DNA of 64,000 nucleotides from assembly GCF_011758745.1 (NCBI RefSeq), contig NZ_JAANOV010000001.1, forward strand, positions 434,001-498,000, given 5' to 3'. How positions within the stretch are numbered: position 1 is the first letter of the stretch; the number at the start of each line of letters is the position of its first letter. The translations under genes were made by a program, and so were the position numbers. Below the pieces are notes generated by a model that had not been told where the DNA came from, did no database searches, and was given only the letters and a program-made list of their open reading frames with translations. This document shows, piece after piece, positions 7,148-29,562 of the stretch. This DNA comes from Amycolatopsis granulosa. GTDB taxonomy: Bacteria; Actinomycetota; Actinomycetes; Mycobacteriales; Pseudonocardiaceae.

Positions 7148-8347
7148 TCAGAATCCCGTGCCGCACCAGGGCGGAACCGCCGTGGCGAACAGGGCGTCGG
7201 CATGAGGCAGCGCCGCCGGGTCGGCCACGTCGATCCGCCCGATCGCGGCGAGCGTGCTGGGCCGGGCGTCGCCGAGGTAGAGCATCGCCAGTGTCTCCGG
7301 GGTGACCCGCAGGCCGGCCGCGGCCGTGGTGGTGCGCGTCCCGGGGGGTGAGAGCCGGTAGCGGCCGGTGTTGGCGGGCAGTTGCGGGTCGGTCACCTCG
7401 ATCACGACCGGCTCCCCCGGTCCCCAGCTCCGGGCGGCCAGCGCCGCGGGCACGTTGACCAACCGGAGCCAGGTGTCATCGTCCACACCGTTCACCGCGC
7501 AGGCGCGGGGGTCGGCGAGCATCGCACCCACCGGCTCGTCGAGCGGCCGCCCCGGCGCACGGACTTCGGAGACGAGGTCCACCCGCAGCAGGAACCGCCA
7601 GAGACCGGCGGCCGCGGTGGTGCTCGTGGCGTGCAGGTCCTGCACGACGAGCGCGGCGCCGCGGTTGGGGTGGTCGAACGTGCGCCGGTCCTCGGTGCGG
7701 TAGAGCACGAAACCGTCGTCGCCGCGCGGTCCGGTGTGGACGGCGACATGGTGTTCGCCGATCAGGCGCTCGCGCGCATACGACCACCACACGTCAGGCC
7801 GCTCGATCATGCCGGGCCGGTTCAGGCCCATCTCCGCATACAGCCCGGGCAGCAGTTCGCGTGCCTCCGCCGTGGTGAGCAACCGGACGGTGCCGCCCGC
7901 GGGCGCATCGCCGCGGAAGGCGGCCGGCGTGATGCGCACCGTCTTGCCGCGGGTTGCGGCGCCGTAACCGAAGCGGCCGTAGATGGTCGCCTCGCTGGCG
8001 TGCAGGGTGGCCAGCACGTCACCACGACGGGCGCAGTCCGCCAGCTGGGCGGCCATCAACGCGGTCAGGACACCGCGTCGCGTGTGATCGGCCCGCACCG
8101 CCACCCCGTCCACGGCCGCGGCGGGAAGCGCTTTCCCGCCGGGCACGGCGAGACGGGTGGCGAAGGAGCCCGCGACACCCACCACCTGCTCACCGGTGAA
8201 CGCGCCGAACCGGCGCTCGGCCGGGAAGGACGCTGCCCGGCGCCGCCACAACTCGTCGGTGACGGTGGCGTGCAGGGCACGGCCGAGCACCTCGAACGCC
8301 GCCCGCTCCTCCCCGGCCGCCAGCGCCCGGATCTCGTAGCCGTTCAC
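7148..8347 (-). CDS. Eis-type GNAT N-acetyltransferase (copy 1)
   Basis: 399 aa, the usual length of Eis proteins: tandem GNAT domains followed by an SCP2-like domain. The acetyl-CoA loop is VDGVAVRADHTRRGVLTALM (about residues 76-95). The polypeptide ends in WCGTGF; the free carboxylate of the last Phe is the catalytic base in mycobacterial Eis. Homologues acetylate aminoglycosides and other amines; the natural substrate here is unknown. GTG start overlaps the stop of the DUF4333 lipoprotein gene (GTGA). It is one half of a duplicated gene pair with 8344-8700. Confidence 0.85.
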   Translation of the reverse strand: MNGYEIRALAAGEERAAFEVLGRALHATVTDELWRRRAASFPAERRFGAFTGEQVVGVAGSFATRLAVPGGKALPAAAVDGVAVRADHTRRGVLTALMAAQLADCARRGDVLATLHASEATIYGRFGYGAATRGKTVRITPAAFRGDAPAGGTVRLLTTAEARELLPGLYAEMGLNRPGMIERPDVWWSYARERLIGEHHVAVHTGPRGDDGFVLYRTEDRRTFDHPNRGAALVVQDLHATSTTAAAGLWRFLLRVDLVSEVRAPGRPLDEPVGAMLADPRACAVNGVDDDTWLRLVNVPAALAARSWGPGEPVVIEVTDPQLPANTGRYRLSPPGTRTTTAAAGLRVTPETLAMLYLGDARPSTLAAIGRIDVADPAALPHADALFATAVPPWCGTGF

Positions 8348-15421: not shown

Positions 15422-16402
15422 CTACTGGCCCAAGGTGACCGGCAGGTGACGTGCCCTTTCCAGCGCGGCGGCGGCCCGGCTGCGCACCGCCGCCGCGAGC
15501 CCGGGCGGGCTCTCCACCCGCGCATCGCCGCCCAGACCCAGCACCAGTCGCACCATCCAGGACTCGTCGCCGTAGCGCATCCGCACCCGCAGCCGCCCTC
15601 CGTCGAGCTCGCCCAGCTCCTCGCACGGGTAGTACTCGGCCACCCACCGGGCGTCCGGTTCGAGCACCAGCTGCGCCTCCGCCTGACCGGGCCGCGCCCG
15701 GAACACCCCGTCGGAGATGTCCGTGGGCCGCGCGGCCGACGGCGGCGCGGCCCGCTCGTCGAGCACGTCGACCTCGTCGATGCGGTCCAGCCGGAACAGC
15801 CGCACCCCCTCGGCGCGCCGGCACCAGGCCTCCAGGTACCCGACCGCCTGCACGATCAACAGCCGCATCGGGTCGACCGTGCGCTCGGTGATCTGGTCCC
15901 GCGACGCCGTGTAGTAGCGGATCCGCAGCGCCCGGCCGGCCCGCAGGGCGTGCTGCACCACCCCCCGGGTGGCCGCCGTCTTCTCACCCTCCCGCAGCGC
16001 CCGGCCGACCACGACCCCGGACGGCTGCGCCTGACCCGCCGCTGCCTCGATCTTCGCGATGGCGCGGTGCACCGCGTCGGTGTCGACCACGCCGGGGGTC
16101 TCGGCCACCGCGCGCAACGCGACCAGCAGCGCGGTCGCCTCACCGCCGGTGAGCCGCAGCGGCCGGTTCATGCCCGCATCGAAGGTGACGGTGACCGTGT
16201 CACCCTCGAAGGACAGGTCGATCAGATCACCCGGACCGTACCCGGGCAGACCGCACATCCACAGCAGCTCCAGGTCGCGGCGCAACTGCCGCGCGCTCAC
16301 CCCGAAGTCGCGGGCCGCGTCCTCGATGCGGATACCCGGCCGGGCCAGCAGGTACGGCACGAGCGCGAGCAGCCGGGGCATCCGGTCGGTCGACCCGCTC
16401 AT
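15422..16402 (-). CDS. pafC: WYL-domain transcriptional activator PafC
   Basis: 326 aa. N-terminal winged HTH (IRIEDAARDFGVSARQLRRDLELLW), WYL domain (ALRIRYYTASRDQITERTVDPMRLL) and a C-terminal WCX domain. In mycobacteria PafB and PafC act as a heterodimer that activates the LexA/RecA-independent DNA-damage genes through RecA-NDp promoters. ATG overlaps the pafB stop by 4 bp, which keeps the partners at equal levels. Two matches to the target promoter lie in this window (22671-22693 and 32457-32479). Confidence 0.92.
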   Translation of the reverse strand: MSGSTDRMPRLLALVPYLLARPGIRIEDAARDFGVSARQLRRDLELLWMCGLPGYGPGDLIDLSFEGDTVTVTFDAGMNRPLRLTGGEATALLVALRAVAETPGVVDTDAVHRAIAKIEAAAGQAQPSGVVVGRALREGEKTAATRGVVQHALRAGRALRIRYYTASRDQITERTVDPMRLLIVQAVGYLEAWCRRAEGVRLFRLDRIDEVDVLDERAAPPSAARPTDISDGVFRARPGQAEAQLVLEPDARWVAEYYPCEELGELDGGRLRVRMRYGDESWMVRLVLGLGGDARVESPPGLAAAVRSRAAAALERARHLPVTLGQ

Positions 16403-17379
16403 CGCCGCACCTCGTGGTGCAGGATCGACTCCAGCCGCCCGCGGACCGCCTTGGCCAGCACGTCCGGCTCCAGCACCAGCACGTCGGGCCCGTGCCCGGC
16501 GATCCAGTCCGCCGCGCTCTCCGGGAAGTACAGGTCGATCTCGGCCAGATCGCCCGGCACCCCGTCCACCGTCATCCGGCCGGTGAGGCGCGCCCGGCGC
16601 CGCACCCCCGCCGCGCGCTGGTCGGCGATCCACAACTTCGCGGTGGTCACCGGCGACGGTTCCGGCTCGCCGGTGCCGGCGATCAGCTCCAGCAGGTTCA
16701 CGTTCTCCGGTCGCTGCACCTCACCCGGCCTGCCCACCGTGCGCACGTCACCGACGATTCGCGACAGCCGGAAACACCGCGGCGCCGCACGATCCCGGTC
16801 GTGCCCCACCACATACCACCGCGCCCGCCAGGACACCACACCCCACGGCTCCAGGGTGCGGATCAGCCGCTCCGCCGACCCCGACCGCCGGTAGGAGAAC
16901 TGCACCGCCTGATGCGCCTGCACCGCGGCGACCAGCGGGGTGAAGGCCGGCTCGGCCCGCACCCGCGACTCCACCACCGGCGGTTCGCTGTGGTCCACCT
17001 CGACCCCGGCCGCACGCAGCTTCACCAGCGCACCCTGGGCCTGCCCGGTCATCTCCGGCGAGTCCCACAGCCGCACCGCGAGCCCCACGGCCGCGGCCTC
17101 GTCGGGCGCCAGCTCGATCTCCCCCAGCTCGTAGTCGCGGCGCGCGATGCGATAACCCTCCGCCGGGTCGAACGCCGAGTTGCGGCCGGTCTCCAGCGGA
17201 ATGCCCAGTTCGCGCAGCTCGGTCTTGTCCCGCTCGAACATGCGGGAGAACGCCTCGTCACTGGCCGCGTCGGCGTACCCGGGCACGATCCCGCGGATCC
17301 GGTCAGCGGTCAGGTACTGCCGGGTCGACAGCAGAGCGAGCACCAGGTTGACCAGGCGCTCGGCGCGGGCGGTGGACAC
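16399..17379 (-). CDS. pafB: WYL-domain transcriptional activator PafB
   Basis: 326 aa. N-terminal winged HTH (RLVNLVLALLSTRQYLTADRI), WYL domain (VQFSYRRSGSAERLIRTLEPWG, WYVVGHDRDR) and WCX domain. Partner of PafC. The GTG start is preceded, 6 nt upstream, by TACTGT, so a separate leaderless promoter probably drives pafBC within the 110-bp gap after the DUF1684 gene, in addition to read-through from pafA. Confidence 0.92.
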   Translation of the reverse strand: MSTARAERLVNLVLALLSTRQYLTADRIRGIVPGYADAASDEAFSRMFERDKTELRELGIPLETGRNSAFDPAEGYRIARRDYELGEIELAPDEAAAVGLAVRLWDSPEMTGQAQGALVKLRAAGVEVDHSEPPVVESRVRAEPAFTPLVAAVQAHQAVQFSYRRSGSAERLIRTLEPWGVVSWRARWYVVGHDRDRAAPRCFRLSRIVGDVRTVGRPGEVQRPENVNLLELIAGTGEPEPSPVTTAKLWIADQRAAGVRRRARLTGRMTVDGVPGDLAEIDLYFPESAADWIAGHGPDVLVLEPDVLAKAVRGRLESILHHEVRR

Positions 17380-17489: not shown

Positions 17490-18266
17490 TCAGCGGCGTT
17501 CCCACGGGATCTGCTCGCCCGCCTCCACGGCGAACGGCAACCGGTTCTCCGCCGGCGGCAGCGGGCAGGTCGCCAGGTCGATGAACGCGCACGGCAGGTT
17601 CACCGCCCGGTTGAAGTCCAGCTCCACCCGGCCCCCCGCGTCCGGCGCCGCGACCGACAGGCTGCGGTTCGCCGCATACGTCGTCACCCCGGACGTCGCG
17701 TCGGTGAACAGCACCGAGAAAGCCGCCGCCCCCTTGCCGTTGAACGCGGTCAGCGCGAACTCCTCGCCCGCACGGGTGAACCGCAGCACCCCCGGTGACG
17801 AATACACGTGCGACAGTCCCTCCACCACCGCCCCGACCGTCACCGCACGCGGCTCGTCGAACGGCTCGAACCGCCCGGGCAGCACCCACGCCGGATCCGG
17901 TTCGTAGGCCGGCACCCCGCGGAACGCCGCCCGCACCGGGGCCGCCGGATCCCGCAATCGCACCAGGTACCCGCCGCGTCGCGCCACCTCCACGACCCGG
18001 TCACCGGCCTTGACCATCTCACCGGGACCGCTCTCGGCCAGCTCGAACCGCGCCGTGCCGGCCACCTCGAGCTCGTCGTCCGGGCCGGCCGACACCACCG
18101 CGGCGGCGCCCTCCTCGTGCCAGGTGCCGGGGATGCCCTCGAACCGCTGCGGCTCCGGCGTCAGCCAATGCCGCGCCGTGATGCTCAACCAGCCGTGCGG
18201 CTCTGCGAGCACCCGCTCCCGTTCGGCGTGCCACTCCCGCCACGCCGCCGCGAACCCGCCACTCAC
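17490..18266 (-). CDS. DUF1684 family protein
   Basis: 258 aa. It shows the DUF1684 pattern: [12 protein letters not shown] near the start, [21 protein letters not shown], then [22 protein letters not shown] and [12 protein letters not shown] at the end, with two conserved Cys. The biochemical function of the family is not known. GTG 18266 overlaps the pafA stop (GTGA); a longer in-frame reading inside pafA is less likely. Its coupling to the Pup ligase gene, which mycobacteria lack as far as I know, is notable. Confidence 0.82.
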
Positions 18267-19621
18267 AGCGAGCTGATCAGCCGGTCGACGCGCTCGTCCA
18301 CCGCGCGGAACGGGTCCTTGCACAACACGGTCCGCTGCGCCTGGTCGTTCAGCTTCAGGTGCACCCAGTCGACCGTGAAGTCACGCCCCGCGGCCTGCGC
18401 CGCCGCGATGAAATCGCCCCGCAGCTTCGCGCGCGTGGTCTGGGGCGGAGTGTCCTTGGCCAGCTCGATCTCCCCGTCGTCGGTGATCCGCCGCACCAGC
18501 CCCTTGCGCTGCAGCAGGTCGAACAGGCCGCGCCCCCGCCGGATGTCGTGGTAGGCCAGGTCCAGCTGCGCCACCCGCGGGCTGGACAGGTCCAGGTTGT
18601 GCTTGGCCCGGTACCGCTCCACCAGCCGGTGCTTGATCGCCCAGTCGATCTCGGTGTCGATCTTGCCGAAGTCCTGCTGCTCCACCGCGTCCAGCGCGCG
18701 GCCCCACAACTCGACGACCCGCCGCGCGGTCGGGCCGGAATCGTTGGCCTGCACGTGCTGGACGGCACGGCCGTAGTACTCGCGCTGGATGTCCAGAGCC
18801 GAGGCCTCCCGCCCGCCGGCCAGCCGCACCGGGCGCCGCCCGGTCAGGTCGTGGCTGATCTCCCGGATCGCCCGGATCGGGTTGTCCAGCGTGAAGTCCC
18901 GGAACTGGACACCCTGCTCGATCATCTCGAGAACCAGGTTCGCCGTCCCGATCTTCAGCAGGGTCGTCGGCTCGGCCATGTTCGAGTCACCCACGATGAC
19001 GTGCAGCCGGCGGTACCGCTCGGCATCGGCGTGCGGCTCGTCCCGGGTGTTGATGATCGGCCGCGACCGCGTGGTGGCGCTGGACACGCCCTCCCAGATG
19101 TGCTCGGCCCGCTGCGACAGGCAGTACACCGCGCCCCGCGGCGTCTGCAGCACCTTGCCCGCGCCGCAGATCAGCTGGCGGGTCACCAGGAACGGCAGCA
19201 GCACGTCCGCGATCCGGGAGAACTCGCCCGCACGCGTCACCAGGTAGTTCTCGTGGCACCCGTAGGAGTTGCCCGCCGAGTCGGTGTTGTTCTTGAACAG
19301 GAAGATGTCGCCGCCGATACCCTCGTCGGCCAGCCGCCGTTCCGCATCGACCAGCAGGTCCTCGAGGATCCGCTCACCGGCCTTGTCGTGCGTGACGAGC
19401 TGCACCAGGTCGTCACACTCAGCGGTCGCGTACTCGGGGTGCGACCCCACGTCGAGGTAGAGCCGGGAGCCGTTGGACAGGAAGACGTTGGACGAGCGCC
19501 CCCACGACACGACCCGCCGGAACAGGTAGCGCGCCACCTCATCGGGCGAGAGCCGGCGCTGCCCGTGGAACGTGCAGGTGACGCCGAACTCGGTCTCGAT
19601 GCCAAAAATCCGCCGCTGCAT
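18263..19621 (-). CDS. pafA: Pup--protein ligase PafA
   Basis: 452 aa, glutamine-synthetase-like fold. It joins the C-terminal Glu of Pup to substrate lysines using ATP. Visible are the Mg/ATP-binding GIETEFG (Glu9, Glu11), the catalytic Asp57 in [16 protein letters not shown], the [18 protein letters not shown] loop and [20 protein letters not shown]. It lacks the extra Dop loop, which separates it from Dop at 22715. A TAGCAT box lies only 4 nt before the ATG, somewhat short for a leaderless start. First gene of the pafA-DUF1684-pafBC-tat operon. Confidence 0.96.
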
Positions 19622-20658: not shown

Positions 20659-21411
20659 TCAGCTCGCCGGCGGCGTCTCGTCGTTCTCCGGCGTCTCCGG
20701 CTTCGCATCACCGGCATCCGCGGGCTGCTCGGGCAGCAGCGCGTCCAACGCCGCGCCCTGGATCCGGCGGAACTTCCGGCCCGGCCGATCCCGGTCCAGC
20801 ACCGCCACCTCCAACTTCAGCGGCGCGCTGTCCCCGTTGTTGCTCACCGCCCGCAGCGCGTCCAGCGCGACCTTCAGCGCGTCCCGCAGCTCCAGGCCGT
20901 CGGAGTAGATCTCCTTGAGCTTGTTCGCCACCGGCTCGGTCTGCCCACCGGTCACGACGTACCTCGGCTCGTCGAAGATCGACCCGTCGTAGGTCAGCCG
21001 GAACAGCTGGTCCTCCTCCGGCGTCGACCCCACCTCGGCCACGCACAGCTCCACCTCGTACGGCTTGAGCTGCTCGGTGAAGATACTGCCCAGCGTCGCC
21101 GCGTAGGCGTTCGCCAGGGCACGCGCCGTCACGTCACGGCGGTCGTACTGGTAGCCCTTCAGATCCGCGTGCCGGATACCCGCCACCCGCAGGTTCTCGT
21201 ACTCGCTGTAGCGGCCGACCGCCGCGAACCCAATCCGGTCGTAGATCTCGGAGATCTTGTGCAGCGTGGTCGACGGGTTCTCCGCCACGAAAAGCACACC
21301 GCTGCGGTACTTCAGCACGACCACACTCCGGCCGCGCGCGATGCCCTTGCGCGCGAGCTCCGAGCGCTCGCGCATCAACTGCTCGGGAGAGGCGTACAGC
21401 GGCAGCGTCAC
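20659..21411 (-). CDS. prcA: 20S proteasome alpha subunit
   Basis: 250 aa. N-terminal gating segment and H0 helix ([22 protein letters not shown]), then the Ntn fold without a catalytic Thr ([35 protein letters not shown] read in parts). The long acidic C-terminal tail ([24 protein letters not shown] in parts) is typical of actinobacterial PrcA. Seven subunits form each outer ring and dock Arc. GTG start with GGAG upstream. 56 nt after prcB. Confidence 0.96.
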
Positions 21412-21467: not shown

Positions 21468-22328
21468 TCAGGTCCGGCCGCGCGTGGCCTGCTCGGCCCG
21501 GCCCTCGACGACCGCCTCCGCCACCGCGGCGGACTGCTCGTCCGGCAGCCGCACCGAGCCGCGCTCGGCGGTGATCGTCACCAGCGTCGGGAAGATCCGG
21601 CGCACCAGGTCCGGCCCGCCCGTCGCGCTGTCGTCGTCGGCCGCGTCGTACAGCGCCTCGATCGCGGTGCGCACCGCGGTCTCCTCGTCGGCGTCCGGGT
21701 CGTACAGCTTCTTCAGCGACGACTTCGCGAACAACGACCCCGACCCGATCGCGTGGTAACCCGCACGCTCCTCGTACCGGCCGCCGGTCACGTCGTAGGA
21801 CACGATCCGCCCGGCCCGCTTCGGGTCGTCGGCCTCGATGTCGTAACCGACGAACAACGGCAGCGCCGCCAGGCCCGCCATCGCCACGTCCAGGTTGCCC
21901 TTCACCATCGTGGCGAGCTTGTTCGTCTTGCCGTCCAGCGACAGCGGAACGCCCTCGATCTTCTCGTAGTGCGCCAGCTCCACCGCGTAGAGCCGCACCA
22001 GCTCCAGCGCGATACCGGCGCTGCCCGCGATGCCCACCGCGGAGTAGGCATCGGTGACGTGCACCTTGTCCATGTCGCGGGAGGCGATCAGGTTGCCCGA
22101 GGTGGCCCGGCGGTCACCGGCGATCAGCACACCACCGGCGAACGACACGGCCACGATCGTGGTGCCGTGCGGGGCATCCAGCTCGCCCGCCCCGGAGTTC
22201 GGCAGCTGCCGGCGACCCGGCAGCAGGTCAGGCGCCTGCATGCGGAGGAACTCGGCGAACGACGACGTCGTGCTCGAGAAGAAGGCAGCGGGCAGCGCGG
22301 AGCCCGTGGGGCCCGAGGTGTGTTCCAT
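21468..22328 (-). CDS. prcB: 20S proteasome beta subunit
   Basis: 286 aa precursor. A 55-residue propeptide ends at APHG; self-cleavage frees Thr56 ([11 protein letters not shown]), the N-terminal nucleophile. The Asp and Lys/Arg context GDRRATSGN follows. Mature subunits form the inner rings. ATG 22328 (MEHTSG) was preferred over an upstream in-frame codon. Second gene of pup-prcB-prcA. Substrates are pupylated proteins unfolded by Arc. Confidence 0.96.
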
Positions 22329-22449
22329 ACGTGCTCGTGGTTCCCATCGACGAAGTGTGGTGCTCCCGCGGGCCGGAAACCAGCGGGAACACGACAACCG
22401 GCACTACAAGCTACTCAGTGCGACCACCCTAATGGCCGCCGGTGAGCGG

Positions 22450-22644
22450 CTACTCGCCGCCCTTTTGCACGTAGGCGCGCACGAAGTCCTCGGCGTTCTC
22501 CTCGAGCACGTCGTCGATCTCGTCCAGGATCGTGTCGACGTCCTCACCCAGCTTCTCGCGGCGTTCCTGGCCGGCCGGGGCACCACCCTCGACCTCGTCG
22601 TCGGAGCCGCCGCCACCGTGCTTCTCGATCTTCTCCTGAGCCAT
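22450..22644 (-). CDS. pup: Prokaryotic ubiquitin-like protein Pup
   Basis: 64 aa, disordered N-terminus, a central coiled-coil-forming helix (about residues 25-55, with DVDTILDEIDDVLEENAEDF) that binds Arc, and the C-terminus YVQKGGE. The last residue is already Glu, so Dop deamidation is not needed before ligation; in M. tuberculosis Pup ends in Gln. Ribosome site GGGAGGCGAG before ATG. A RecA-NDp-like promoter ends 27 nt upstream. Cotranscribed with prcB and prcA. Confidence 0.97.
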   Translation of the reverse strand: MAQEKIEKHGGGGSDDEVEGGAPAGQERREKLGEDVDTILDEIDDVLEENAEDFVRAYVQKGGE

Positions 22645-22670
22645 CTCGCCTCCCGGTGAGTCCTGCCCCT

Positions 22671-22693
22671 AGCCTACCCAGAGACAACGACAA
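22671..22693 (-). promoter_or_regulatory. RecA-NDp-like (PafBC) promoter of pup-prcBA
   Basis: On the minus strand the sequence is TTGTCGTTG, eight bases, then TAGGCT. The mycobacterial RecA-NDp consensus is TTGTCRGTG-N8-TANNNT; 8 of 9 positions of the upstream block, the spacing and the TANNNT box all match. TAGGCT lies 26 nt before the pup ATG, leaving a leader of about 20 nt with a ribosome site. It implies DNA-damage induction of pup by PafBC, whose genes are 5 kb away. Confidence 0.7.
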
Positions 22694-22714
22694 TCGGTGG
22701 TTTTCCCGCTGCGG

Positions 22715-24217
22715 TCAGTCGGAACCGGTGAGCGCCTCGACCAGCTCCTCCGCCGTCGCCGACTCGTCCAGAAGGCGCCCGACGTGCGCCTTCGTGCCCC
22801 GCAGCGGCTCCAGCGTCGGGATGCGGACCAGGGACTCCTTGCCCACGTCGAAGATCACCGAATCCCAGGACGCGGCCGCGATCGAGGTGGCGTACTTCTC
22901 CAGCGCCCGCCCCCGGAAGTAGGCGCGGGTGTCCTCCGGCGGGTTCGTGATCGCCGCCTGCACCTCCTCCTCGGTGACCAGCCGCTTCATCGAGCCGCGG
23001 GCCACCAGCCGGTTGTACAGGCCCTTCTGCAGCCGCACGTCCGAGTACTGCAGGTCCACCAGGTGCAGCCGCGGCGCCGCCCAGCCCAGGTTGTCACGCT
23101 GCCGGTAACCCTCCAGCAGCCGCAGCTTCGCCGGCCAGTCCAGCCGGTCGGCGCACTCCGCCGGGTCCCGGGCGAGCGCGTCCAGGATCTCACCCCAGAC
23201 CCGCAGCACCTCCTTCGACACCGCGTCCCCGCCCGTGCGCTCCAGGTGCGCCGCGGCCAGCTCGTGATAGGCGAACTGCAGGTCCAGCCCGGTGAACTTG
23301 CGCCCGTTGGCCAGCGACACCTTTGTCTTCAGCGTCGGATCGTGGCTGATCTGGTGCACCGCGCGCACCGGCTCGTCCAGCTTCAGGTCGTCGAACCGCT
23401 GCCCGGCCTCGATCATGTCCAGCACCAGCGCGGTGGTGCCCAGCTTGAGGTACGTCGAGTACTCGGCCATGTTCGCGTCCCCGATGATGACGTGCAGCCG
23501 CCGGTACTTGTCGGCGTCGGCGTGCGGCTCGTCGCGGGTGTTGATGATCCCCCGTTTCAGCGTCGTCTCCAGGCCGACCTCGACCTCGATGTAGTCCGAG
23601 CGCTGCGACAGCTGGAAACCGGCCTCCTCGCCCTGCGGCCCGAGGCCCACGCGACCCGAACCGGTGACCACCTGCCGCGACACGAAGAACGGGGTCAGCC
23701 CGCCGATCACCGAGGTGAACGGGGTGGACCGGGACATCAGGTAGTTCTCGTGGGTGCCGTAGCTGGCGCCCTTGCCGTCGACGTTGTTCTTGTACAGCTG
23801 CAACGGCGGCTGCCCGGGCACGGTGGCCGCCCGCATCGCGGCCTCCTCCATCACCCGCTCCCCCGCCTTGTCCCAGATGACCCCGTCCCGCGGGTTGGTC
23901 ACCTCGGGCGCGGAGTACTCCGGGTGCGCGTGGTCGACGTAGAGCCGGGCGCCGTTGGTCAGGATGACGTTGGCCGCTCCGAGGTCCTCCACGTCCGGGT
24001 CGTGGCCCGGACCGCCCGGTCCGGCCAGGTCGAAGCCCCGGGCGTCGCGCAGCGGCGACTCGACCTCGTAGTCCCACCGCGCACGACGTGCCCTCGGGAT
24101 GTCCGCGGCCGCCGCGTAGGCCAGCACGACCTGCGTCGATGTCAGTACCGGATTGGCCGTCGCGTCGCCCGGCACGGCGATGCCGTACTCGACTTCGGTT
24201 CCCATGATCCGCCGCAT
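22715..24217 (-). CDS. dop: Depupylase/deamidase Dop
   Basis: 500 aa homologue of PafA. It cleaves the isopeptide bond between Pup and substrate. The start GTEVEYGIA carries the ATP/Mg ligands and Asp95 in [15 protein letters not shown] is the catalytic residue. An insertion at about residues 38-80 ([18 protein letters not shown] onward) is the Dop loop absent from Paf[19 protein letters not shown] and [20 protein letters not shown] are conserved. As Pup here ends in Glu, Dop probably serves only as depupylase. TAGGCT 6 nt before the ATG suggests a leaderless mRNA. Confidence 0.96.
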
Positions 24218-24315: not shown

Positions 24316-24891
24316 ATGGCGCGCGACGCGGACGAACTGGTGGCCCACTACGACGCGGCGGGGACGGTGGTGGGCCGGGTGCGCCGCGCCGAGATGCGCG
24401 CGCACGGTCTCTGGCACGCCGCGACGCTGGTGCTGGTGCGCTCCGGCGACGGTTCCCGGGTCTACGTCCACCGCCGCGCACCGGACAAGGACGTGTTCCC
24501 GGGTCTGCACGACTGCTGGGCGGGCGGGGTCTTCGCCGCCGGCGAAACGCCTGAGCAGGGGGCCGAACGGGAGCTCGCGGAGGAGCTCGGGGTGCGCGGC
24601 GTTCCGCTGGCACCGCTGTTCACGTTCGAGCAGCCGCCGGTGCGGTGCCACTACTTCGCCTACGAGGTGCGCTGGGACGGCCTCATCGCGCACCAGCCGG
24701 AGGAGATCGTCTCCGGCCGCTGGATGTCCCTGGCCGGACTGCGGGCCTGGGCCGAAGACCCGGAAAGCCCTTTCGTGCCCGACGGCAGGTACGCGATCCG
24801 GGAGTGGTTCCGCCGGCGCGGACAAGGCTTTCCGGGGCAGGACCTCAGCTCTGGGGCAGCTTCCCCGCCGCACGGGGGGCCAGGGTCTTGA
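24316..24891 (+). CDS. Nudix hydrolase (IPP isomerase/YfcD-like)
   Basis: About 191 aa. The Nudix box is GGVFAAGETPEQGAERELAEELGV (GX5EX7REXXEEXG; shown in consensus). VYVHRRAPDKDVFPGLHDCW before the box is like YfcD and isopentenyl-diphosphate isomerase, but key IPP-isomerase residues cannot be judged. Start is uncertain between ATG 24304, GTG 24313 and ATG 24316. The last 47 bp overlap the 3' end of the convergent lipoprotein gene, so the two transcripts are antisense there. Confidence 0.8.
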   Translation: MARDADELVAHYDAAGTVVGRVRRAEMRAHGLWHAATLVLVRSGDGSRVYVHRRAPDKDVFPGLHDCWAGGVFAAGETPEQGAERELAEELGVRGVPLAPLFTFEQPPVRCHYFAYEVRWDGLIAHQPEEIVSGRWMSLAGLRAWAEDPESPFVPDGRYAIREWFRRRGQGFPGQDLSSGAASPPHGGPGS

Positions 24892-27030: not shown

Positions 27031-28839
27031 TTACAGGTACTGGCCGGTGTTGGTGGCCGTGTCGATGACGCGGCCGGACTCCTGGTTCTTGCCGGTGACG
27101 AGCGTGCGGATGTAGACGATCCGCTCGCCCTTCTTGCCGGAGATCCGGGCCCAGTCGTCCGGGTTGGTGGTGTTGGGCAGGTCCTCGTTCTCCGCGAACT
27201 CGTCGACGATCGCGTCGAGCAGGTGCTGCACCCGCAGCCCGGGCTGCTTGGTCTCCAGGACCGACTTGATCGCCGCCTTCTTCGCCCGGTCCACGATGTT
27301 CTGGATCATCGCGCCCGAGTTGAAGTCCCGGAAGTACAGGACCTCCTTGTCACCGTTGGCGTAGGTGACCTCGAGGAACCGGTTCTCGTCGGTCTCCTCG
27401 TACATGCGCTCGACGGTGTTCTGGATCATCGCGTCGACCGTGGCCTGCTCGTCCCCGCCGAATTCGGCGAGGTCGTCGGCATGGATCGGCAGTCCCGGCC
27501 GCAGGTACTTGGAGAAGATGTCCTTCGCGCCCTCGGCGTCCGGCCGCTCGATCTTGATCTTCACGTCCAGCCGGCCGGGCCGCAGGATCGCCGGGTCGAT
27601 CATGTCCTCCCGGTTGGAGGCGCCGATGACGATGACGTTCTCCAGCCCCTCGACACCGTCGATCTCGGCCAGCAGCTGCGGCACGATCGTGGTCTCCACG
27701 TCCGAGGAGACACCACTGCCGCGCGTGCGGAAGATCGACTCCATCTCGTCGAAGAACACGATGACGGGCGTGCCGTCGGACGCCTTCTCGCGAGCCCGCT
27801 GGAAGATCAGGCGGATACTCCGCTCGGTCTCGCCGACGAACTTGTTGAGCAGCTCCGGGCCCTTGATGTTGAGGAAGTACGACTTCGCCTCGCTGGAGTT
27901 GCCGTCGCCGCGCGCCTCGGCCACCTTCTTGGCCAGGGAGTTGGCGACCGCCTTCGCGATCAACGTCTTACCGCAGCCGGGCGGGCCGTAGAGCAGAACA
28001 CCCTTGGGCGGCCGCAGCTCGTACTCCCGGTAGAGGTCGGCGTGCAGGAACGGCAGCTCGACCGCGTCGCGGATCTGCTCGATCTGCCGCCCGAGGCCAC
28101 CGATGTCCTCGTACCGGACGTCCGGGACCTCCTCCAGCACCAGGTCCTCGACCTCGGCCTTGGGCACCCGCTCGTAGGCGTAACCCGCCTTCGAATCCAC
28201 CAGCAGCGAGTCGCCCGGCTTGAGCGTCTGCGCGGCGAGCGGATCGGACAGCCAGACCACCCGCTCCTCGTCGGCGTGCCCGACGACCAGGGCGCGGGCA
28301 CTGCCGCTGTCCGTGGCCGGCGACAGGACCTCACGCAGCGAGCAGACCTCGCCGGTGAGCTCGAAATCGCCCGCCTCGACCACGGTCAGGGCCTCGTTGA
28401 GCCGGAGGGCCTGACCGCGCTGGAGGGACTCCACCTCCACCGCCGGGGACACGGACACCCGCATCTTGCGGCCGGCCGTGAACACGTCGACGGTGTTGTC
28501 CTCGTACGCGGTGACGAACACGCCGTACCCGCTCGGGGGCTGGGCGAGCCGGTCGACCTCCTCACGCAGCGCGAGGAGCTGTCCCCGTGCCTCGCGGAGG
28601 GTCTCCACCAGCTTGTTGTTCCGCTCCGTGAGCTGGGCGACCCGCTCCGACGCCTCGGCGAGACGCTGCTCCAGCACCCGGTTCTGACGGGGTGATTCGG
28701 TTAGTTTGCGCCGCAGCAGCGCCACTTCCTCTTCCAGGAAGCGGACCTGCCGCGCCTGCTCGTCCGCCGTCGTTCCAGCTCCACTGATCTCAGAAGGGTC
28801 GGCGTCCTCGTGCCGACCTCCGGGAAGGTCGTGTTGCAT
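27031..28839 (-). CDS. arc: Proteasome-associated AAA ATPase Arc (Mpa)
   Basis: 602 aa. A coiled coil (about 25-98) binds Pup, two OB domains follow (about 100-240), then the AAA domain with Walker A GPPGCGKT (285-292), Walker [11 protein letters not shown] (359-368) and Arg-finger region. The C-terminus GQYL is the conserved motif that docks into the alpha ring. Hexamers unfold pupylated proteins into the 20S core. Ribosome site GAGGAGGTG stands about 6 nt before ATG. Followed by the strong terminator at 26987. Confidence 0.97.
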
Positions 28840-29562
28840 GTCGGCACCTCCTCGGAGTGCTTTTAACCCACGGTACCGGCGATCACCGACATGAAAAGCC
28901 CTATCCGCATCACAGGATCGGCGCGTCGCATCACGAATGCGGACAGAACCGTTACACCGGCGTCCCGCCCGGCGGTCGGCGAACCGCTCGAAAAACCACG
29001 GAAAGTGACCACCCGGCGGCCACCAGCGGCCATCCGGGCGGTGAGCGATTCACTCATGTGACGACCACCCAACCAAGGCTTTACCGGACGTTCACAGAGC
29101 GTCTTCCCCCTCGCCTCATGCTTCAAACCCCAGCGCTTTCCGCGCCACCACACCGGATCCGCGCCGCCAGGTCGCACCGCCGAGATCGGGTCCTCCCCCG
29201 CCCGGGCCACCACCGGCCCCGCTCCCGATCGGGACGAAACCGGAAGCCGTCCCGGCGCGTCCAAGGCGGGCGGACACCCACCGTGCACGAGGAGACGTCC
29301 GTGACCCGTCCGCCGCACGGCCCAGGCGGCCGGCCCGTGGACCCCGGGGATGCGCCGGCCGTCGCCCCGCGCCGATCTGGGGATCGGTCCACTCCCGGGG
29401 GCCACTCCGGGCGAAGTACCCAGCCTGCGGCCGGAGTGGGCGCCGGCCGAGCTGCGCGGCACCGGTGACCGCCGAGATGCGAAGATTCCGGTGAAACGGC
29501 AGGGTTCGCACTGGTGCGTCGACGGATCCTGAGCCAACCCATCCACGAAGGGCGACCCGATC
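28840..29562. other. 723-bp gap between arc and the Pro-rich membrane protein gene
   Basis: No reading frame on either strand gives a recognisable protein of normal composition. The arc-proximal part has the arc ribosome site and presumably its promoter. The right half contains the possible gene relic at 29350-29532. Several frames are open for over 150 codons but are rich in Arg/Pro/Gly, as expected for random GC-rich sequence. Confidence 0.5.
29350..29532 (+). pseudogene. Possible relic of a membrane/lipoprotein gene C-terminus
   Basis: Frame 1 ends in LRGTGDRRDAKIPVKRQGSHWCVDGS in pieces (DAKIPVKRQGSHWCVDGS then TGA). This looks like a normal final beta strand of a secreted domain and resembles the end of the adjacent gene (VWCYLGDRLGS). 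Nothing upstream continues it, since a TGA interrupts the frame at about 29302. It may be what is left of a duplicated neighbour. Weak evidence. Confidence 0.3.

Follow-up and report, generated by a model that had tools for sequence, protein, structure and literature searches.

The closest described system is the PafBC regulon of mycobacteria, whose promoters form the RecA-NDp class. According to PMC11804915, PafBC with single-stranded DNA joins the RNA polymerase-sigma A holoenzyme at promoters with a -26 motif, which is read by PafB; PafBC sits there between the promoter and sigma domain 4, the usual -35 contact. The motif was given for M. tuberculosis in the form TGTCGG-N10-TANNNT (PMC8151990). 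In M. smegmatis, pafA, pafB and pafC were described as a single operon, and in 2017 it was still described as elusive why pafBC should lie in the proteasome locus (PMC5656591). The association was later explained via the degradation of PafBC targets; in M. smegmatis, the proteasome was described to remove RecA following damage (PMC8223512).

The window analysed here is a stretch of 64,000 nucleotides of Amycolatopsis granulosa, and the features of its proteasome locus are listed in Table 1. The sequence-only reading had placed genes for PafB and PafC about 5 kb from the pup promoter; domain and PDB matches confirmed both, at a distance of about 5.3 kb. Both regulators matched PDB entry 7p5x, which we take to be the M. 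smegmatis PafBC complex with RNA polymerase, and PafB contains, towards its N-terminus, a segment (SDEAFSRMFERDK) that was identical to the 7p5x chain in the alignment. A DUF1684 gene separates pafA from pafB in the window. Neither the strict nor the loose pattern scan of the window matched a PafBC-type motif 5' of pafA.

Table 1. Genes and promoter elements of the proteasome locus (positions within the window).
Feature	Position	Strand	Basis
pafC, regulator	15422..16402	-	PDB 7p5x chain AX (named PafC), 1.6e-84
pafB, regulator	16399..17379	-	WYL and WCX domains; PDB 7p5x chain AY, 2e-82
DUF1684 gene	17490..18323	-	domain match
pafA, Pup ligase	18263..19621	-	TIGR03686, 8.3e-234
prcA, proteasome alpha	20659..21411	-	TIGR03691, 6.3e-108
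prcB, proteasome beta; start codon uncertain (mechanical ORF)	21468..22397	-	TIGR03690, 5e-106
pup, 64 aa	22450..22644	-	PF05639, 2e-21; TIGR03687, 4.2e-20
-10 element TAGGCT of pup; extended -10 CTGGG directly 5'	22671..22676	-	sequence
8-nt spacer TCTCTGGG of the pup promoter	22684..22677	-	sequence
PafBC-type -26 element TTGTCGTTG of pup	22685..22693	-	sequence; position conserved
dop, depupylase, neighbour upstream of pup	22715..24217	-	TIGR03688, 2.7e-231
arc/mpa, proteasomal ATPase	27031..28839	-	TIGR03689, 8.5e-257
-10 element TACCGT of arc/mpa; CGG directly 5'	28870..28875	-	sequence
-26 element ATGTCGGTG of arc/mpa	28884..28892	-	motif scan; conserved in family

Upstream of pup, the minus strand of the window reads TTGTCGTTG-TCTCTGGG-TAGGCT (22693..22671). 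A RecA-NDp (PafBC) motif with a short leader and a ribosome site had been claimed here, and both parts were found to be correct. Compared with TTGTCRGTG-N8-TANNNT, the element has the exact spacing, the -10 box as described and a single mismatch (position 7, G to T); TAGGCT is followed by 26 nt, containing a GGGAGG ribosome site, before the pup ATG (22644). The pattern scan of 22300-22900 around pup returned no sigma70-type -35/-10 pair. The -26 block, the 8-nt spacing to TANNNT and the absence of a -35 hexamer are features that the pup promoter shares with the RecA-NDp class.

The same motif class was then counted in the whole genome (5.62 Mb). The pattern TTGTCRNNG-N8-TANNNT occurs 13 times, against one occurrence of the pattern written backwards, and position 7 is a G in 11 of these 13 sites; whereas pup has a T. 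The exact pattern TGTCGGTG-N8-TANNNT occurs 23 times, and its reversed form does not occur. The motif sites of the genome include an exact one at 2101639 and a one-mismatch one at 4734273. When the downstream gene was assigned mechanically, eight of the 23 sites preceded genes that match replication or repair models, namely polA, uvrA, uvrB, gyrB/parE, a PD-(D/E)XK nuclease, dnaX, radA and an SCO1167-type helicase. One further site precedes arc/mpa (28892..28870 of the window), and another a MATE transporter whose match to the DinF model is below the cut-off. Of the remaining 13 downstream genes, some belong to no family and the others are mixed; the site set is thus enriched for repair but is not purely a repair set. 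Located separately, the recA gene has the PafBC-type promoter TTGTCGGAC-CCCGCCCG-TAGTCT, and also a perfect LexA-type CGAAC-N4-GTTCG box (CGAACACGTGTTCG). Dual control of recA has been described in mycobacteria (PMC8223512). At the level of the genome, the RecA-NDp assignment agrees with the presence of both PafB and PafC and with the position of the motif class in front of repair genes. The same exact pattern was counted in 19 genomes, 17 of which showed at least a six-fold excess over the reversed control, including three genomes of family f20 (24 vs 2, 13 vs 2, and 15 vs 1); the exceptions were G038 (2 vs 1) and G124 (0 vs 0).

The site ahead of arc/mpa is the second PafBC-type site of the window and was absent from the sequence-only reading. 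Its -26 block ATGTCGGTG differs from TTGTCRGTG by one mismatch and keeps the 8-nt spacing to TANNNT. Within the window, TTGTCRNTG-N8-TANNNT with at most one mismatch was found twice, at pup and at arc, against 0.15 expected (1 of 100 shuffles reached two). The arc upstreams were compared in 30 of the 60 arc-bearing genomes of the family Pseudonocardiaceae: the block is TTGTCGGTG in 13 of the 30, is matched with at most one mismatch in 26 and with at most three in 28; whereas none of 300 permuted motifs was matched within two mismatches. Outside the family, 69 of the 126 class genomes above the arc cut-off, the own genome apart, were searched over 350 and 450 nt ahead of the profile match. Among these 69 genomes of 19 other families, none had the block within two mismatches and one had it within three, in a search that a leader much over about 250 nt would escape. 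These counts argue against an ancient origin of the arc element, which was probably gained at arc within the family or on the way to it, as judged from its distribution. When all upstream DNA at arc was considered outside the family, there was a single match, in G174, 1,134 nt away and too distant for an arc promoter. Some non-family genomes share the arc -10 region (for example, CGCCGGTAGCGT in f2) without the -26 block. G013 has kept the block at arc although its genus (g14) lacks it at pup. Two side observations concern the arc promoter itself. The spacer ATCGCCGG is also nearly invariant in the arc upstreams (L309-L338), in contrast to the pup spacer; and CGGTGATCGCCG is near-palindromic and may additionally bind something else.

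The two sites of the window might not be equivalent. The pup block is TGTCGT in all four genomes of the genus of the window; whereas both genus members examined at arc have TGTCGGTG there, and pup may be a weaker site than arc. It is therefore possible, though rather unlikely, that PafBC binds the pup site with little effect and that arc is the functional target in this genus. However, TTGTCG is constant at pup in the four genus members while the flanks vary. Less likely still is a purely constitutive role, in which the pup block would belong to a housekeeping promoter, for instance as the point at -26 that sigma A or some other factor touches, with no role of PafBC or damage. This would fit the extended -10, which persists at pup in the genera that lack the block. 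It would also fit the unstressed proteasome levels in M. smegmatis, where Dop, Mpa, PrcA and PrcB were reported as unchanged without pafBC (PMC5656591). These protein data, the one direct observation encountered on this question, are no test of damage, and none of L038, L076 and L082, the named Mycolicibacterium records, has the block at pup. Moreover, the same element stands at the same spacing ahead of uvrA, uvrB, polA, radA, dnaX and recA in this genome, and it was probably acquired separately at arc; both speak against a housekeeping part.

Other damage or stress regulators were considered for the same promoters. ClgR recognises palindromes of the type TTCGC-N5-GCGAA, and none with up to two mismatches is present at 22089-23260. 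That ClgR rather than PafBC acts at the pup promoter is thus very improbable, even though published statements credit ClgR with recognition of the RecA-independent motif and with higher prcB and prcA in M. tuberculosis (PMC5656591); later work assigns this motif to PafBC (PMC8223512). An SOS promoter was also rejected. The LexA box has the consensus CGAAC-N4-GTTCG, which was not found within one mismatch near pup or arc; at this threshold the window contains only two such boxes, at 8206 and 24564. The latter (24564-24577, one mismatch) lies near an exact TTCGC-N5-GCGAA palindrome at 24532-24546, 315 nt 5' of the dop ATG, and the pair is situated about 315-360 nt 5' of dop.

A lack of the TTGTC block in related genomes had been set beforehand as an outcome that would refute the sequence-only reading. 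The reading survived this check, since the block is conserved in the family at exact spacing and in some other families as well. A Pup match was missing from one (G048) of 100 sampled Pseudonocardiaceae genomes, and the pup upstreams of the other 99 were all read. The GGTAnnnT closest to pup served as the anchor in 98 of the 99 genomes (G004 has no such anchor and was dropped). TGTCGG with at most one mismatch, starting 16 nt before the -10, is present in 61 genomes and 33 of 46 genera, leaving 13 genera without the block; other offsets gave at most 11 genomes or seven genera, and 36 permuted cores at most one genus each. The exact form TGTCGG-N10-TANNNT precedes pup in 36 of the 99 genomes; whereas each of 12 other spacers gave 0/99. 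Pairwise identity among the 46 genus representatives is also higher in the core (0.61) than in the spacer (0.39) or the flank (0.36). When one mismatch is allowed in TGTCGG-N10-TANNNT, this looser pattern shows no enrichment within the window (4 sites vs 3.73 expected). The single-window statistic is therefore modest, and the case is carried by conservation and the genome-wide counts. A chance match in G+C-rich DNA, which that lack of enrichment might suggest, can practically be discounted, because the motif holds the same offset in so many genera while other offsets and permuted cores do not.

Some further features were noted at pup in the family. A weaker conserved block (CCGAGTGGC-like) lies 5' of the -26 element, at about -35 to -26 relative to the -10, where CGAGTGG with at most one mismatch is found in nine genera at one offset. 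Genera without the pup block often carry TGTGGGCGAA there (six genera, one offset), which is perhaps the site of another regulator. Second or third Pup-like genes are located elsewhere in some genomes (L243-L247 from G012, G056, G091 and G072; G025:C11). Five of these extra copies (G012, G056, G091 twice, and G072) were kept out of the counts, and the sixth, in G025, is also outside them.

Outside the family, 90 of the 162 pup-bearing class genomes, the own genome apart, were examined. TGTC[AG]G-N10-TANNNT precedes pup in 21 of these 90 genomes from 31 other families, against at most one at other spacers. The positive families are f20 (10/10), f19 (6/9), f2 (2/11), f28 (1/10), f30 (1/4) and f41 (1/1); none of the genomes from the other 25 families has this pattern before pup, including f18 (0/10) and f21 (0/5). 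In three f18 genomes (G115, G186 and G240), pup is preceded by TTGTCGGTC, but GAAGAT takes the place of TANNNT at the usual spacing; this may be the same element in a form whose -10 has changed. TGTCR was also found at the pup spacing in 30 of 80 named records, including 9 of 12 Nocardia, a set in which L087 offers just 18 nt of upstream sequence and L070 has a doubtful -10. These results bear on a published remark from a LexA study of Streptomyces venezuelae, in which an initial search suggested a lack of conservation of the PafBC motif in that species (PMC9380542). The f20 counts would run opposite to that remark, provided that f20 is Streptomycetaceae, a family name that is tentative.

The reading of pup as a PafBC-type promoter is supported at the sequence level by its conservation, by the repair-gene motif set and by the recA promoter. 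It is quite probable that pup-prcB-prcA and arc/mpa are both PafBC (RecA-NDp) targets, with a split between basal and induced transcription and with the repair response under delayed negative feedback; from the motifs we infer that the proteasome would be induced by damage. Points against this reading are the unchanged proteasome levels of unstressed M. smegmatis without pafBC, the T at position 7 of the pup site, the 13 of 46 family genera with no block at pup, and the 69 of 90 pup upstreams of other families in which TGTC[AG]G-N10-TANNNT is missing. The extended -10 (TNGG-TAnnnT at pup, CCGG-TACCGT at arc) would allow basal transcription by the housekeeping holoenzyme. DNA damage would yield single-stranded DNA, which PafBC is expected to bind; the loaded PafBC would then join RNA polymerase-sigma A, and PafB would read the -26 block TTGTCG. 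As a result, Pup, the 20S proteasome and the ATPase might increase alongside the repair genes. The proteasome would then remove repair proteins such as RecA, and the damage signal would in effect order its own later shut-off. Delayed negative feedback is the likely purpose, because the proteasome clears RecA after damage in M. smegmatis. The PafBC signature on the proteasome genes, kept in many relatives, suggests that the machine is probably made to order upon damage. A broader view has about an even chance of being right: that the wiring of PafBC to pup is widespread and possibly old, with the proteasome as a delayed off-switch; that it explains the position of pafBC in the locus and was doubled in Pseudonocardiaceae via arc; and that it was missed since the rapid-growing mycobacterial models have lost the pup block.

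The PafBC promoter class is already known; whereas no report of pup, prcBA or mpa as PafBC targets was found in the open-licence literature searched, and these candidate targets might be new to the class. If both proteasome units are indeed served by a conserved PafBC-type promoter, transcription would be the level at which the loop is closed. The finding is of real value, because the association of pafBC with the proteasome becomes directly testable. Compared with the LexA SOS regulon, which is likewise damage-responsive, recA combines a PafBC-type promoter with a LexA box in this genome; whereas pup and arc have no LexA box within one mismatch nearby. Control of a Pup-pathway gene by PafB has been proposed before, since PafB was reported to control pafA transcription (Korman et al. 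2018, as cited in PMC6466877). That gene is pafA, not pup or arc, and other studies, as summarised in PMC6466877, found pafA mRNA unaffected by pafBC and no PafBC binding at the pafA promoter. The mycobacterial RecA-NDp promoters share the TTGTCR block, the fixed spacing to TANNNT and the missing -35 with those described here, which are also found at recA and repair genes. The differences are the Pup-proteasome targets, the GG kept before TA at pup and arc, and the T at position 7 of pup in the genus. The damage response is tied to the proteasome in M. smegmatis as well, where 26 proteins of the PafBC regulon were reported to be pupylated (PMC8223512). However, the link in M. smegmatis is the degradation of regulon proteins; whereas the motifs of this locus point to the transcription of the proteasome genes themselves.
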